NCBI GenBank assembly: GCA_947625015.1
Contig: CANQMR010000011.1
Coordinates: 1 to 64,000, forward strand
Direction of reading: 5' to 3'
DNA from: an uncultured Lachnospiraceae bacterium
GTDB taxonomy: Bacteria > Bacillota > Clostridia > Lachnospirales > Lachnospiraceae
Length of the DNA stretch: 64,000 bases
Positions 32,563 to 59,141 of the stretch are shown piece by piece; position 1 is the stretch's first letter, and the number at the start of each line of letters is the position of its first letter. The notes under the pieces were generated by a model. It ran no database searches, was not told the DNA's origin, and worked only from the letters and a program-made list of their open reading frames with translations. A program made the position numbers and the translations under genes.

Positions 32563-33054
32563 CCCGGTTTTGGCGGGTATCTTTCTCTTATCCGCCGCCT
32601 CATAGTGTGCCCACCGCCGCAAGATAATCTTTTTCCCGATTTTCCCGACACGCGGTTTTTTAGAAATCCACTGCCGGTCCGTCCTGCATAATGCACGTGC
32701 GAAGAAGTGTCTGAGCACCGGGTTTGGGGTGCTGGGCAAACATCATGCAGCCACGCTTGCGCTCTGTCGAAAACGCAGCGGTACGTAAGCGGAGGCCCGA
32801 TTTCTTATCTGCCGCATGGCGGATTATTGCAGAGCCTCCGCAAGTACCGGCGTTTTCAAAGGGGCTGCTGATGTTTCCCAGTCACCCCTTCCCGGTGTGA
32901 GTTCTTCGTAAGCACGTGCAATAAAATATGCAGGACGGACCGGCAGCAGGATTTCTTAAAACCGATGGCAGTGCGGGAAAATGGGAAAAGATTATTCTGC
33001 GGCGGTTTTCAGATATAAACGGCGGATAAGAGAAAGATACCCGCCAAAACCGGG
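32563..33054. repeat. Giant imperfect palindrome, copy D of the palindromic family
   Basis: The first 35 bases (32563-32597, starting CCCGGTTTTGGCGGG) are the exact reverse complement of 33020-33054. Inside lie unpaired stretches of 16 nt (32598-32613) and 14 nt (33006-33019), then inner arms that pair imperfectly almost to the centre near 32810. CAGCCACGCTTGCGCT (32748 on) and CGGTAC (32779 on) match the core of copies A and B. Weak pairing continues outward to the truA stop codon. No gene is supported in it. It fills the space between truA and the rplM promoter and is about 490 bp long. Confidence 0.9.
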
Positions 33055-33114
33055 GGAAAGTAATGAAAAGGGGTAGAAATGTACAATTTTGGTGGATTTT
33101 AGGGAAAAAATTCG

Positions 33115-33143
33115 TTGACAGGGAAGGGTATTTATAATATAAT
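33115..33143 (+). promoter_or_regulatory. Consensus promoter of rplM-rpsI
   Basis: TTGACA (33115-33120), a 17-bp spacer and TATAAT (33138-33143), both perfect. Confidence 0.92.
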
Positions 33144-33149
33144 ATTTAA

Positions 33150-33374
33150 CTGTGACGATAGGCAAAGACTGTGCAAATGCCACTAGCCCCGGCGTTGTGC
33201 GGTTTTGAAATCACTTGATGTTCGGTTGTCAAACCCACTTCAACCGGAACGCCAGGTGGTGATAGAAGAAGTCATTTCATATGATATGGAGGAGAGTGCT
33301 GTTTCGGACATTGCAGCATAATCTGTGTGTTTGTATGAAGGACGGTAATATTGGATGATTTAAGGAGGAACACC
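33150..33374 (+). promoter_or_regulatory. Structured rplM leader, candidate L13 autoregulatory element
   Basis: About 225 nt separate the promoter from the rplM start. GTTCGGTTG pairs with CAACCGGAAC across a 12-nt loop (about 33220-33255), and GGCGTT near 33190 can pair with AACGCC beyond it, giving a multibranched fold. L13 leaders are known in Firmicutes; this assignment rests on position and base pairing only. Confidence 0.5.
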
Positions 33375-33809
33375 ATGAAGAGTTATATGGCAAGCCCATC
33401 AACAATTAACAGAGAGTGGTATGTAGTTGACGCTACAGGACATACATTAGGCCGTTTGGCATCTGAGATTGCAAGCATTTTAAGAGGCAAGAATAAGCCG
33501 ACTTACACACCGCACATTGACACCGGCGATTATGTAATCGTGGTAAATGCAGACAAGATTAAAGTAACAGGCAAGAAGTTAGAACAGAAGGTATATTACA
33601 ACTATTCAGGCTATGTAGGCGGACTGAAGGAGACAACATTGAAAGAGCTCTTAGCCAAGAAGCCGGAAGAGGTAATCCGCAAGGCCGTTAAGGGTATGCT
33701 TCCAAAGGGACCTTTAGGCCGGGAGATGATTACCAAGCTTCATGTGTATGCTGGTCCGGAACACAAGCATCAGGCACAGCAGCCGAAGGCGTTAGAGATT
33801 AAGTATTAA
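33375..33809 (+). CDS. rplM: Ribosomal protein L13
   Basis: A 144-residue 50S assembly protein. WYVVDATGHTLGRLASEIA, YTPHIDTGDYVIVVNADKI and GMLPKGPLGREM are diagnostic. AAGGAGG lies 8 nt before ATG 33375. Confidence 0.98.
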   Translation: MKSYMASPSTINREWYVVDATGHTLGRLASEIASILRGKNKPTYTPHIDTGDYVIVVNADKIKVTGKKLEQKVYYNYSGYVGGLKETTLKELLAKKPEEVIRKAVKGMLPKGPLGREMITKLHVYAGPEHKHQAQQPKALEIKY

Positions 33810-33826
33810 TGAAGGAGGACAAAGCA

Positions 33827-34222
33827 GTGGCTAAGACGACAAGATATTACGGAACCGGTAGAAGAAAAAGCAGTGTTGCAAGAGTTTACTTAACACCTGG
33901 TACAGGTAAAGTTACCATTAATAAAAGAGATATGGATGATTACTTTGGCTTAGAGACACTTAAGCTGATTGTAAACCAGCCATTTGTAGTGACTAATACG
34001 GCAGGAAAGTATGATGTGCTTGTAAATGTTCGCGGAGGCGGATTTACAGGTCAGGCGGGCGCCATTCGCCATGGTATTTCCAGAGCATTGTTAGAGGCAG
34101 ATGCAGATTTTCGCCCGGCGCTTAAGAAGGCAGGATATCTTACCCGCGACTCTCGTATGAAGGAGAGAAAGAAGTACGGTTTGAAGGCTGCACGTCGTGC
34201 TCCGCAGTTCTCGAAGAGATAA
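33827..34222 (+). CDS. rpsI: Ribosomal protein S9
   Basis: A 131-residue 30S protein whose C-terminal tail (APQFSKR) reaches the P-site tRNA. YYGTGRRKSSVARVYLTPG is the family opening. GTG 33827 has AAGGAGG 8 nt upstream; an earlier ATG at 33809 lies before it. Confidence 0.97.
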   Translation: MAKTTRYYGTGRRKSSVARVYLTPGTGKVTINKRDMDDYFGLETLKLIVNQPFVVTNTAGKYDVLVNVRGGGFTGQAGAIRHGISRALLEADADFRPALKKAGYLTRDSRMKERKKYGLKAARRAPQFSKR

Positions 34223-34253
34223 TTTTACTATAATTTACACTATCGTATATTGC

Positions 34254-57737: not shown

Positions 57738-57787
57738 AGATTGTGGGCGTGTTTGTGTAGGCGTTACACAAATAACGGTTTTGCTTT

Positions 57788-58543
57788 TTACAGATAGCGT
57801 TTAATATGCACATAGACCTTGCCCTTCCGGGTGCTGCCGCCGGTCCCGGCAAAAATGAATTTGCCATGCCCTCTCACAGAAAATACATCTCCCTCTTTTA
57901 AAAGGACGCTGTTCCTTCCTGTTATCCGTCCATTTAATGTCACTTTTTTCTCGGTAAAGAAATTAAGCGCCTCTTTTCTGGAACACTTTAAAAGCCCGGC
58001 AATAATCCCGTCTAAGCGGAGGGAGGCGGCGGGAAATTCCTCGTCGGCCAGTTTGGGCTTTAGGGCAGGAACGTCCATATCGGTCTGCATGCATTTTACA
58101 TTGGTGTGCTTTACCTTCGTAAGCTCCCGGCAGATAAAATCCGCCATGCTCTCCAGGCAGAAAAGATAGGCAGTCTTATCCCTAATCAGGATATCTCCCA
58201 GTGTATCCCGCTCAATCCCCAGATTCATCAAGGCCCCAAGATAATCCCTGTGGGTGAGCTCATCGCTGAACTTTTCTATCAGCGGCGTAATCTCAATGAC
58301 CGCAATCGGAAAATGTCCGGCATATCCAAATAATTCCTCGGAGCCAAAGCCAACTACCTGACGCTCGCAAAGTTCATTTCCGCCAAAGCATGTAAAACCC
58401 GCATAGGAAAGTTCCCCGCTCATATCCTGAAACACAGCAAGCTCCGACGGCGACAGAAAATTGCTGTAGGTATACACATTCTGCTGATAGGCCCGCTTTG
58501 CCAAATCCGACAGGCGCGCCCGAAGTATCCGTTCTTCTTCCAT
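57788..58543 (-). CDS. ylmH: YlmH-type RNA-binding protein with S4 domain
   Basis: A 251-residue protein. The N-terminal two thirds are the conserved YlmH region (FLSPSELAVF, GYAGHFPIAVIEI, HRDYLGALMNLGIERDTLGDI). Residues about 175-240 are an S4 RNA-binding domain (RLDGIIAGLLKCSRKEALNFF, VTLNGR). Homologues act at stalled ribosomes and associate with the cell division region in Bacillus; the role here is inferred. ATG 58543 follows AAAGGGGA; a longer frame reaching 58582 runs into the palindrome. Confidence 0.9.
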   Translation of the reverse strand: MEEERILRARLSDLAKRAYQQNVYTYSNFLSPSELAVFQDMSGELSYAGFTCFGGNELCERQVVGFGSEELFGYAGHFPIAVIEITPLIEKFSDELTHRDYLGALMNLGIERDTLGDILIRDKTAYLFCLESMADFICRELTKVKHTNVKCMQTDMDVPALKPKLADEEFPAASLRLDGIIAGLLKCSRKEALNFFTEKKVTLNGRITGRNSVLLKEGDVFSVRGHGKFIFAGTGGSTRKGKVYVHIKRYL

Positions 58544-58577
58544 GATATTCCCCTTTATAAGTTTTATAAGTTTTGAA

Positions 58578-58784
58578 GGCAACGGTAAAACTTTAATTTG
58601 TGTTTTATGTGCCGTACAGCGGGAACAATACCAACGCAGGCACGCTTGCGCTATGCTCGCCTCGCAACGGTACTAAGGTGCTGCTTTTGCACCACCTAAG
58701 TACCGGCGGGCTCACAATGCCTGCTTATGGTATTTGTTTCCGCTGTACGGCACAGGAAATGCTGTGATAAGTTTTACCGTTGCC
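58578..58784. repeat. Palindromic element, copy B
   Basis: Outer arms GGCAACGGTAAAACTT (58578-58593) and AAGTTTTACCGTTGCC (58769-58784) are a perfect 16-bp match. After 15 unpaired nt on each side (58594-58608, 58754-58768) come inner arms GTGCCGTACAGCGG (58609-58622) and CCGCTGTACGGCAC (58740-58753). The centre has GGTACTAAGGTG and CACCTAAGTACC around it. The 41-bp block at 58637-58677 is identical to 52575-52615 of copy A in reverse. It is in the leader region of ylmH, 35 bp before its start codon. Confidence 0.92.
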
Positions 58785-58898
58785 ATTTACTTCTGTGATG
58801 AACTATATAATATTGTGGAAAAAAAGTAAAGATTGCATTAAGAAAAATACATCTGCTAATCTGTGGTCAGTGTGGGCAAAGTGCCGATGATGTCAGAA

Positions 58899-58927
58899 TT
58901 GAAAAAGGAAAATAGCTGTGTTATACT
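58899..58927 (+). promoter_or_regulatory. Promoter of dtd-metH
   Basis: TTGAAA (58899-58904), a 17-bp spacer and TATACT (58922-58927) with an extended TGT before it. It lies just upstream of palindrome C, so the element would be transcribed. Confidence 0.65.
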
Positions 58928-58950
58928 TGGTTTCAATGTTAAACTTGACA

Positions 58951-59141
58951 GCGAAACGCTCAACACATGATATTATGTTGTACAGGTAGAACAATTACCA
59001 CAAGCAGGTTTTTTATGCCCGCCGGTACTTAGGTGCTGCGAAGCAGCGCCTTATGTACCGCTGCGAGGCATAAATAAGCGAGAGCGGCCTGCGTTGGTAA
59101 TGTTCTATCTGTATAACATTCACAGCGTAGATGCGTTTCGC
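58951..59141. repeat. Palindromic element, copy C
   Basis: Outer arms GCGAAACGC (58951-58959) and GCGTTTCGC (59133-59141), unpaired stretches of 15 nt and 13 nt, then inner arms ATGTTGTACAGG (58975-58986) and CTGTATAACAT (59109-59119). The centre has GCCGGTACTTAGG and TTATGTACCGC. The outer arms match those of copy A but the inner arms do not. It would occupy most of the 5' leader of dtd. Confidence 0.88.

Follow-up and report, generated by a model that had tools for sequence, protein, structure and literature searches.

Gene-free, MITE-like palindromes of Lachnospiraceae with insertion near Shine-Dalgarno motifs and arms that change in concert

Four large palindromes (A to D) lie in a stretch of 64,000 nt, hereafter the window, which comprises positions 1 to 64,000 of contig CANQMR010000011.1 from an uncultured Lachnospiraceae bacterium (GenBank assembly GCA_947625015.1). 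They belong to an element family that is real, mobile and widespread within one bacterial family. The elements are gene-free and resemble miniature inverted-repeat transposable elements (MITEs), of which they are a variant with an unusual target rule and with arms that evolve in concert. The explanation favored here, with somewhat more confidence than doubt, has three parts. A transposase would move the gene-free element in trans; insertion would occur, as in the genome termed G016, mostly 6 nt upstream of AAGGAG, the Shine-Dalgarno motif, with a target duplication of about 12 bp; and template switching would keep the arms complementary by copying one of them anew from the other, sometimes flipping the core.

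The extent of the family was determined with a covariance model (R1) built from 19 short cores. In the window's own genome (G000) it finds 54 sense-strand copies. Of these, 22 are strong short matches; the other 32 are weaker and consist largely of long forms, though one or more are truncated short forms. Another 24 rows, of 78 in all, are mirror or partial matches. Each of the 24 genomes from the same genus matches, the window's own among them, as do 65 of 150 genomes drawn from the family under stricter filters. None of 16 genomes from other families of the order matches. A class-wide sample of 291 genomes gave seven matches, all in the same family (10 family members are among the genomes listed) and none outside it. 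A pattern scan of named genomes returned at least 117 stretches; by eye, most of the 80 titles listed are Lachnospiraceae or its genera, with a few others, e.g. Muribaculaceae. The preliminary description of the palindromes, which had proposed such a core search, could not name a known element family, and this holds within Rfam and the literature searched. Over the whole window, Rfam 15 finds no copy at gathering score, only an S10 leader elsewhere; in the A-C region nothing scores higher than a microRNA model that hits B with 26 bits (E 0.023), below its gathering score of 54. A known Rfam family was therefore rejected. No match was found in IMG/VR contigs, PLSDB plasmids or INPHARED phages, with one query each at the sensitivity used.

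Mobility is recorded in G016, which carries many near-identical short copies. Forty stretches were fetched, L334 and L335 were left out, and the 38 copies tried were the best-scoring ones plus two found via terminal repeats. Both ends, formed by the terminal inverted repeats TAGGCNNTTGCGAAAC, could be located in 33 of the 38 (five gave no ends). In all of these 33 but L099 the target duplication was usable, giving 32 duplications that are 8-14 bp long, with a mode of 12. When offsets are counted outward from the duplication, with at most one mismatch to AAGGAG and start codons not used, the motif lies 5-7 nt past the duplication at 28 of the 32 sites. The counts number 29 at an offset of exactly 6, with nine further counts at offsets 0-3; the background, taken at offsets 25-94, is 0.4 per offset. 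The motif is to the right of the core at 16 sites and to the left at 12, hence the element is accepted in either orientation. A start codon follows the duplication by 14-23 nt at the 28 sites assigned to a gene, an assignment that itself required a ribosome-binding motif and a start codon; at L324 the motif reads GAGGAG, equally spaced, and no start codon was recognised. The cut by AAGGAG is fixed, while the length of the duplication varies. By eye, several duplications contain -10-like sequences. A promoter (-10) target was the first reading of the duplications, but it was displaced by the sharper AAGGAG spacing. A fixed cut with a duplication varying between 8 and 14 bp, together with the structured core, would also fit spread via an RNA copy, that is, target-primed reverse transcription. 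Such a route is highly improbable, given that both orientations relative to the target motif occur (16 and 12) and that the two ends are inverted repeats.

At one site the insertion can be compared with its absence. In the ilvD leader, 209 bp separate the two parts of the G016 sequence, which overlap by 12 bases; the sequences of G023, G010, G012 and G019 align unbroken, although the G010, G012 and G019 stretches exceed the joined query by 24-43 bp. The mobility suspected in the preliminary description is thus borne out by terminal repeats, target duplications and one empty site. Its proposal to look for empty sites in related strains succeeded at this site, in four other species, but not for copy D: where both halves matched in other species, they were kilobases apart. 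The ilvD site is also occupied in G005, G006, G015 and G020, with different arms (by eye, 18 loci listed), and G008 holds a right-end remnant there. A further 16 loci were tried, 13 from G133, which is of another genus, and 3 from G099; a terminal repeat pair was obtained at 14 (11 of the G133 loci). Duplications 9 bp or longer with no more than one mismatch are present in seven G133 copies, and six of these carry the motif at offset 5 or 6.

Long and short forms in G016 have the same terminal repeats and core, and no open reading frame (ORF) of at least 100 aa is present within L301, L305 and L309, the three long copies with both ends seen. G016 also contains tiny deletion derivatives in which the terminal repeats almost touch (L304 2501-2551, L300 2501-2558, L311 1001-1068); target duplications of the L304 and L300 derivatives were seen by eye. 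Older terminal-repeat remnants beside new insertions (left flanks of L091, L105 and L106) suggest repeated use of the same sites, or excision footprints.

Taken together, the terminal repeats, duplications, AAGGAG spacing and empty site lead us to read the family as MITE-like. REP/BIME elements are likewise gene-free palindromes, moved in trans by RAYT (Y1) transposases. The family described here resembles them in being gene-free and in its presumed mobilisation in trans, but is much longer, has terminal repeats and target duplications, and is found in a genome (the window's) with no match to the Y1 transposase domain (PF01797), on which ground a REP/RAYT system was rejected. An IS4-type enzyme in G016 was likewise rejected, there being no PF01609 match. 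The preliminary description saw no transposase in the window; eight of its proteins were scanned, and the window's genome as a whole has no match to PF01797 or PF01609. No mobilising enzyme was found. Among the closest known systems are bacterial MITEs and small palindromic repeats (PMC3049150, PMC2759123), and the target duplications of the G016 elements are a shared feature. BOX and RUP of pneumococcus, RU of enterobacteria and bacterial MITEs are likewise short, gene-free, intergenic, multicopy and bounded by inverted repeats. TnGBS, ISLre2 and ISKra4, which have Mutator-like DDE transposases, are reported to insert in either orientation when both ends are alike; they carry their transposase and choose sites 15-17 bp upstream of the -35 element of sigma-A promoters (PMC3942029). 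The landmark of the present family is instead AAGGAG, and no enzyme has been found for it.

The second property of the family is the pairing of its arms. Covariation is a standard proof of functional RNA structure, and it is strong in the 19 short copies, with the limit that the structure was derived from the same 19-copy alignment: 18 of 35 pairs have changed on both sides (8.7 when shuffled), 64 cells have changed on both sides (18.6 shuffled), and 94.0% of cells are paired (85.2% shuffled, 24.9-52.8% with columns shifted by 1-3). Further pair types, the weakest measure, numbered 35 against 29.5, a value reached by 4 of 500 shuffles. The covariation is real, and the arms are self-complementary in each copy despite differing between copies, as the preliminary description had observed. 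Of the 784 positions in the outermost arms of 26 long copies, 764 are paired with the other arm of the same copy, at a median identity of 67% from copy to copy. In G055, with 20 copies, arms match their own partners at 184 of 240 positions in all, compared with a maximum of 165 in 10,000 permutations, and many of the mismatches are one-base register shifts; median core identity there is 91%, and mean agreement between 5' arms from different copies is 60%.

The main rival explanation holds that the arms are kept complementary by selection on RNA leaders or DNA hairpins, compensatory mutations being fixed one by one. Strong covariation is what it predicts, and the next downstream ORF is on the core strand in 15 of 21 short copies of the window's genome (simple ORF calls). 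The mismatches speak otherwise. Selection at the RNA level on one strand would favor G.U, but long arms contain 29 G.U, 28 A.C and 28 other mismatches, and in short arms the bias is reversed (2 G.U, 8 A.C, 6 other). Since G.U is not in excess over A.C in the long copies, arm pairing there looks DNA-level.

Orthologous loci in the window's genome and G023, both draft assemblies, allow the changes to be followed one by one. Of 47 copies from the window's genome, 38 have a candidate partner in G023; in two instances, two of these copies have the same partner. Across 10 non-inverted long loci with 788 arm pairs, as defined from the stems of the window's genome only, one side has 25 changes and the other 29; in nine pairs both partners have changed and a different Watson-Crick pair has resulted (permutations give 0.29 on average and never more than 3 in 5000). 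Four of the nine matched double changes are transversions, and at three loci two matched changes sit 6-13 nt apart; both features argue against stepwise compensation under selection. So does the outermost part of the long arms, which diverges faster than the flanks (5.1% vs 2.7%) yet remains paired. There is also a matched indel at L022/L156, and at L130/L157 arm variants have been exchanged between sides. Tandem partial copies are present in G023 (L121, L118) where the window's genome has one (L046, L038).

The core has also changed orientation. Orientation was called from the flanks, since palindromes match both strands. Among 22 long orthologue pairs, 13 have both flanks readable, and in four of these the core is inverted (L055, L060, L140, L142) and in nine it is not; with one readable flank, two more seem inverted and six do not, and one pair is ambiguous. 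Of 16 short pairs, one is inverted (one flank, at a contig end), 14 are not and one is ambiguous; a further short copy, L050/L113, is inverted in alignment. In the four firm inversions the core and the copy-specific loop differ at only 7 of 309 positions, so the same core has been flipped. Where inversions change over, the switch lies some 180-220 nt away from the core, within the outer arms. Since the outermost stem segments are no longer than 41 bp in all but one of the 26 long copies, assembly error seems unlikely for the inversions, although the assemblies are drafts.

If templates are switched where inverted repeats are copied, homogenised arms and inverted spacers are both expected (PMC8604942), and a second report describes template switching as maintaining hairpins (PMC8794818). 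Both marks are present at the orthologous loci, and it is for this reason that template switching was chosen. Template switching is a mutational process, whereas the palindromes form a mobile family, on which it would act across the hundreds of bases between the outer arms. The preliminary description had left two possibilities, that base pairing is selected or that arms are acquired by copying. The matched double changes, indel, swapped variants, inverted cores and lack of a G.U bias favor copying, and selected pairing is not favored for the arms as a whole but is probable on the core of short copies.

That core, read on the plus strand of A, comprises an outer stem, an asymmetric internal loop and a GCAGG/CCTGC stem, followed by a GCCGGTAC...GTACC stem-loop and a small hairpin with a GNRA-like loop. 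Divergence was counted for 13 of the 16 short orthologue pairs, excluding L003, L012 and copy C, whose partner was wrong. There are 21 differences in 1632 positions of the core plus the first 40 nt of the arms, against 192 in 5063 positions of flanks 100-300 nt away, a threefold lower divergence of the core (odds ratio 0.33, p ~6e-8, Fisher test with the flank denominator entered as 5043). Arm copying should not cause such a reduction, which points to selection on resident copies; selection thus probably acts on the core of short copies, judging from sequence divergence, as the selection rival would also have it. Long copies show 4.6% divergence in the core plus terminal loop (9 loci), not less than the flanks, and 1.9% in the first 60 nt of the arms, less than the flanks. 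In the long G016 copy L301 (1501-2077), the GNRA-like hairpin carries about 50 bp extra compared with L309. The resident core may have a host role, for example as a structured 5' leader.

Several observations weigh against the favored combination of trans mobilisation, a Shine-Dalgarno target and template switching. On the side of mobility, no DDE_Tnp_1 (PF01609) match is present in G000 or G016 and one is present in G023; no autonomous copy appeared among the G016 terminal repeats inspected (about 100 of 148 matches listed). The three G099 loci have no clear duplication and do not follow the AAGGAG spacing, which is also weak in the old copies of the window (17 nt from the end in A, about 31 nt in C). 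On the side of the arms, matched changes can also come from selection, and the test for them took its pairs from one genome's stems. In the core hairpin (helices 3-4), G.U-type cells outnumber A.C (6 to 1, small numbers), which hints at an RNA role for the core only, and the GNRA-like loop is closed by a compensated pair, a further hint of RNA function there and a point for the selection rival. With the mismatch counts, the transversions and the fast but paired outer arms set against it, that rival is rather unlikely as an account of the arms. The flipped stretch here is hundreds of bases long, compared with spacers of a few bases for the inversions described in PMC8604942.

Recombination offers another account of the same changes: homologous recombination, gene conversion between inverted arms or a site-specific invertase would homogenise the arms and flip the core. 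It would place the changeover where it is found, in the outer arms, and would explain the exchanged variants at L130/L157. Two cases add to it, and count against the favored reading. One G023 copy, L159, matches L129 on one side and L138 on the other, and the flanks of L134 lead to different G023 copies (L158, L152); either copies also recombine with each other or the draft assemblies are misjoined. For L138, whose G023 partner is also that of L129, the apparent inversion is better explained by exchange between copies or by a misjoin. The outermost stem segments, at 17-41 bp in 25 of 26 long copies, are short for RecA-type exchange, and recombination is unlikely to be the general cause. Template switching remains the preferred source of arm complementarity.

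The palindromes of the window (Table 1) are old members of the family in two sizes: A, B and C are short forms of about 190-210 bp, and D is a long form of about 490 bp with extra arms around the same core. All four lie where the preliminary description had placed them and share a homologous core, as it had reported, and A and B do contain an exact 41-bp block in opposite orientation. It had also grouped the arms into those of D, of B and of an A/C pair. A and C do have common outermost ends (GCGAAACGC/GCGTTTCGC) and a few further bases, but their adjoining arm segments differ. As single strands the copies fold far better than dinucleotide shuffles (z -8.95 for A, -11.35 for B and -9.5 for C with 200 shuffles each; -24.7 for D with 100), and no shuffle folds as well as the real copy in any of the four. 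Chance or unrelated hairpins are ruled out by this folding, the family-wide core matches and the covariation. Copy B is kept in G023 with almost unchanged arms (L034/L112); an orthologue of C was not found among the G023 loci fetched. Copy D is flanked by a truA-like gene, whose stop codon ends at 32559, and the gene of ribosomal protein L13. Elsewhere, the window holds an ordinary known S10-Clostridia ribosomal protein leader (RF03136) at 12815-12896 and further near-perfect, almost loopless hairpins at 41028-41089 and 10985-11022.

Table 1. Palindromic copies and associated features in the window.
Feature	Position	Strand	Remarks
Copy A, short form	52481..52665	+	Directly 5' of cinA-like gene (Pfam CinA); core model match 52510-52634 (+)
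Outer ends of copy A			GCGAAACGC/GCGTTTCGC
AAGGAG Shine-Dalgarno motif of cinA-like gene	52683..52688	+	17 nt past end of copy A
Copy B, short form	58578..58784	-	5' of minus-strand YlmH-like gene; core model match 58618-58746 (-)
Copy C, short form	58951..59141	+	5' of D-Tyr-tRNA deacylase gene; core model match 58982-59110 (+)
Copy D, long form	32563..33054	-	Core model match 32730-32885 (-)
Outermost 35-bp arm of D	32563..32597	+	Perfect complement of 33020-33054; sequence unique to copy D
Partner of outermost D arm	33020..33054	+	

A broader picture, offered tentatively and more apt to fail than to hold, is that of family-wide mobile hairpins that would home on the Shine-Dalgarno motif and become part of the 5' leader, with a core kept by the host and arms rewritten during replication, so that each copy would become unique and could act as a flipping switch. 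What the family provides is a natural multicopy set in which arms change together, with no RNA-type mismatch bias in the long arms and with inversions of the core. As such co-changing arms are present at dozens of loci per genome, the origin and maintenance of hairpins by template switching become testable in bacteria.

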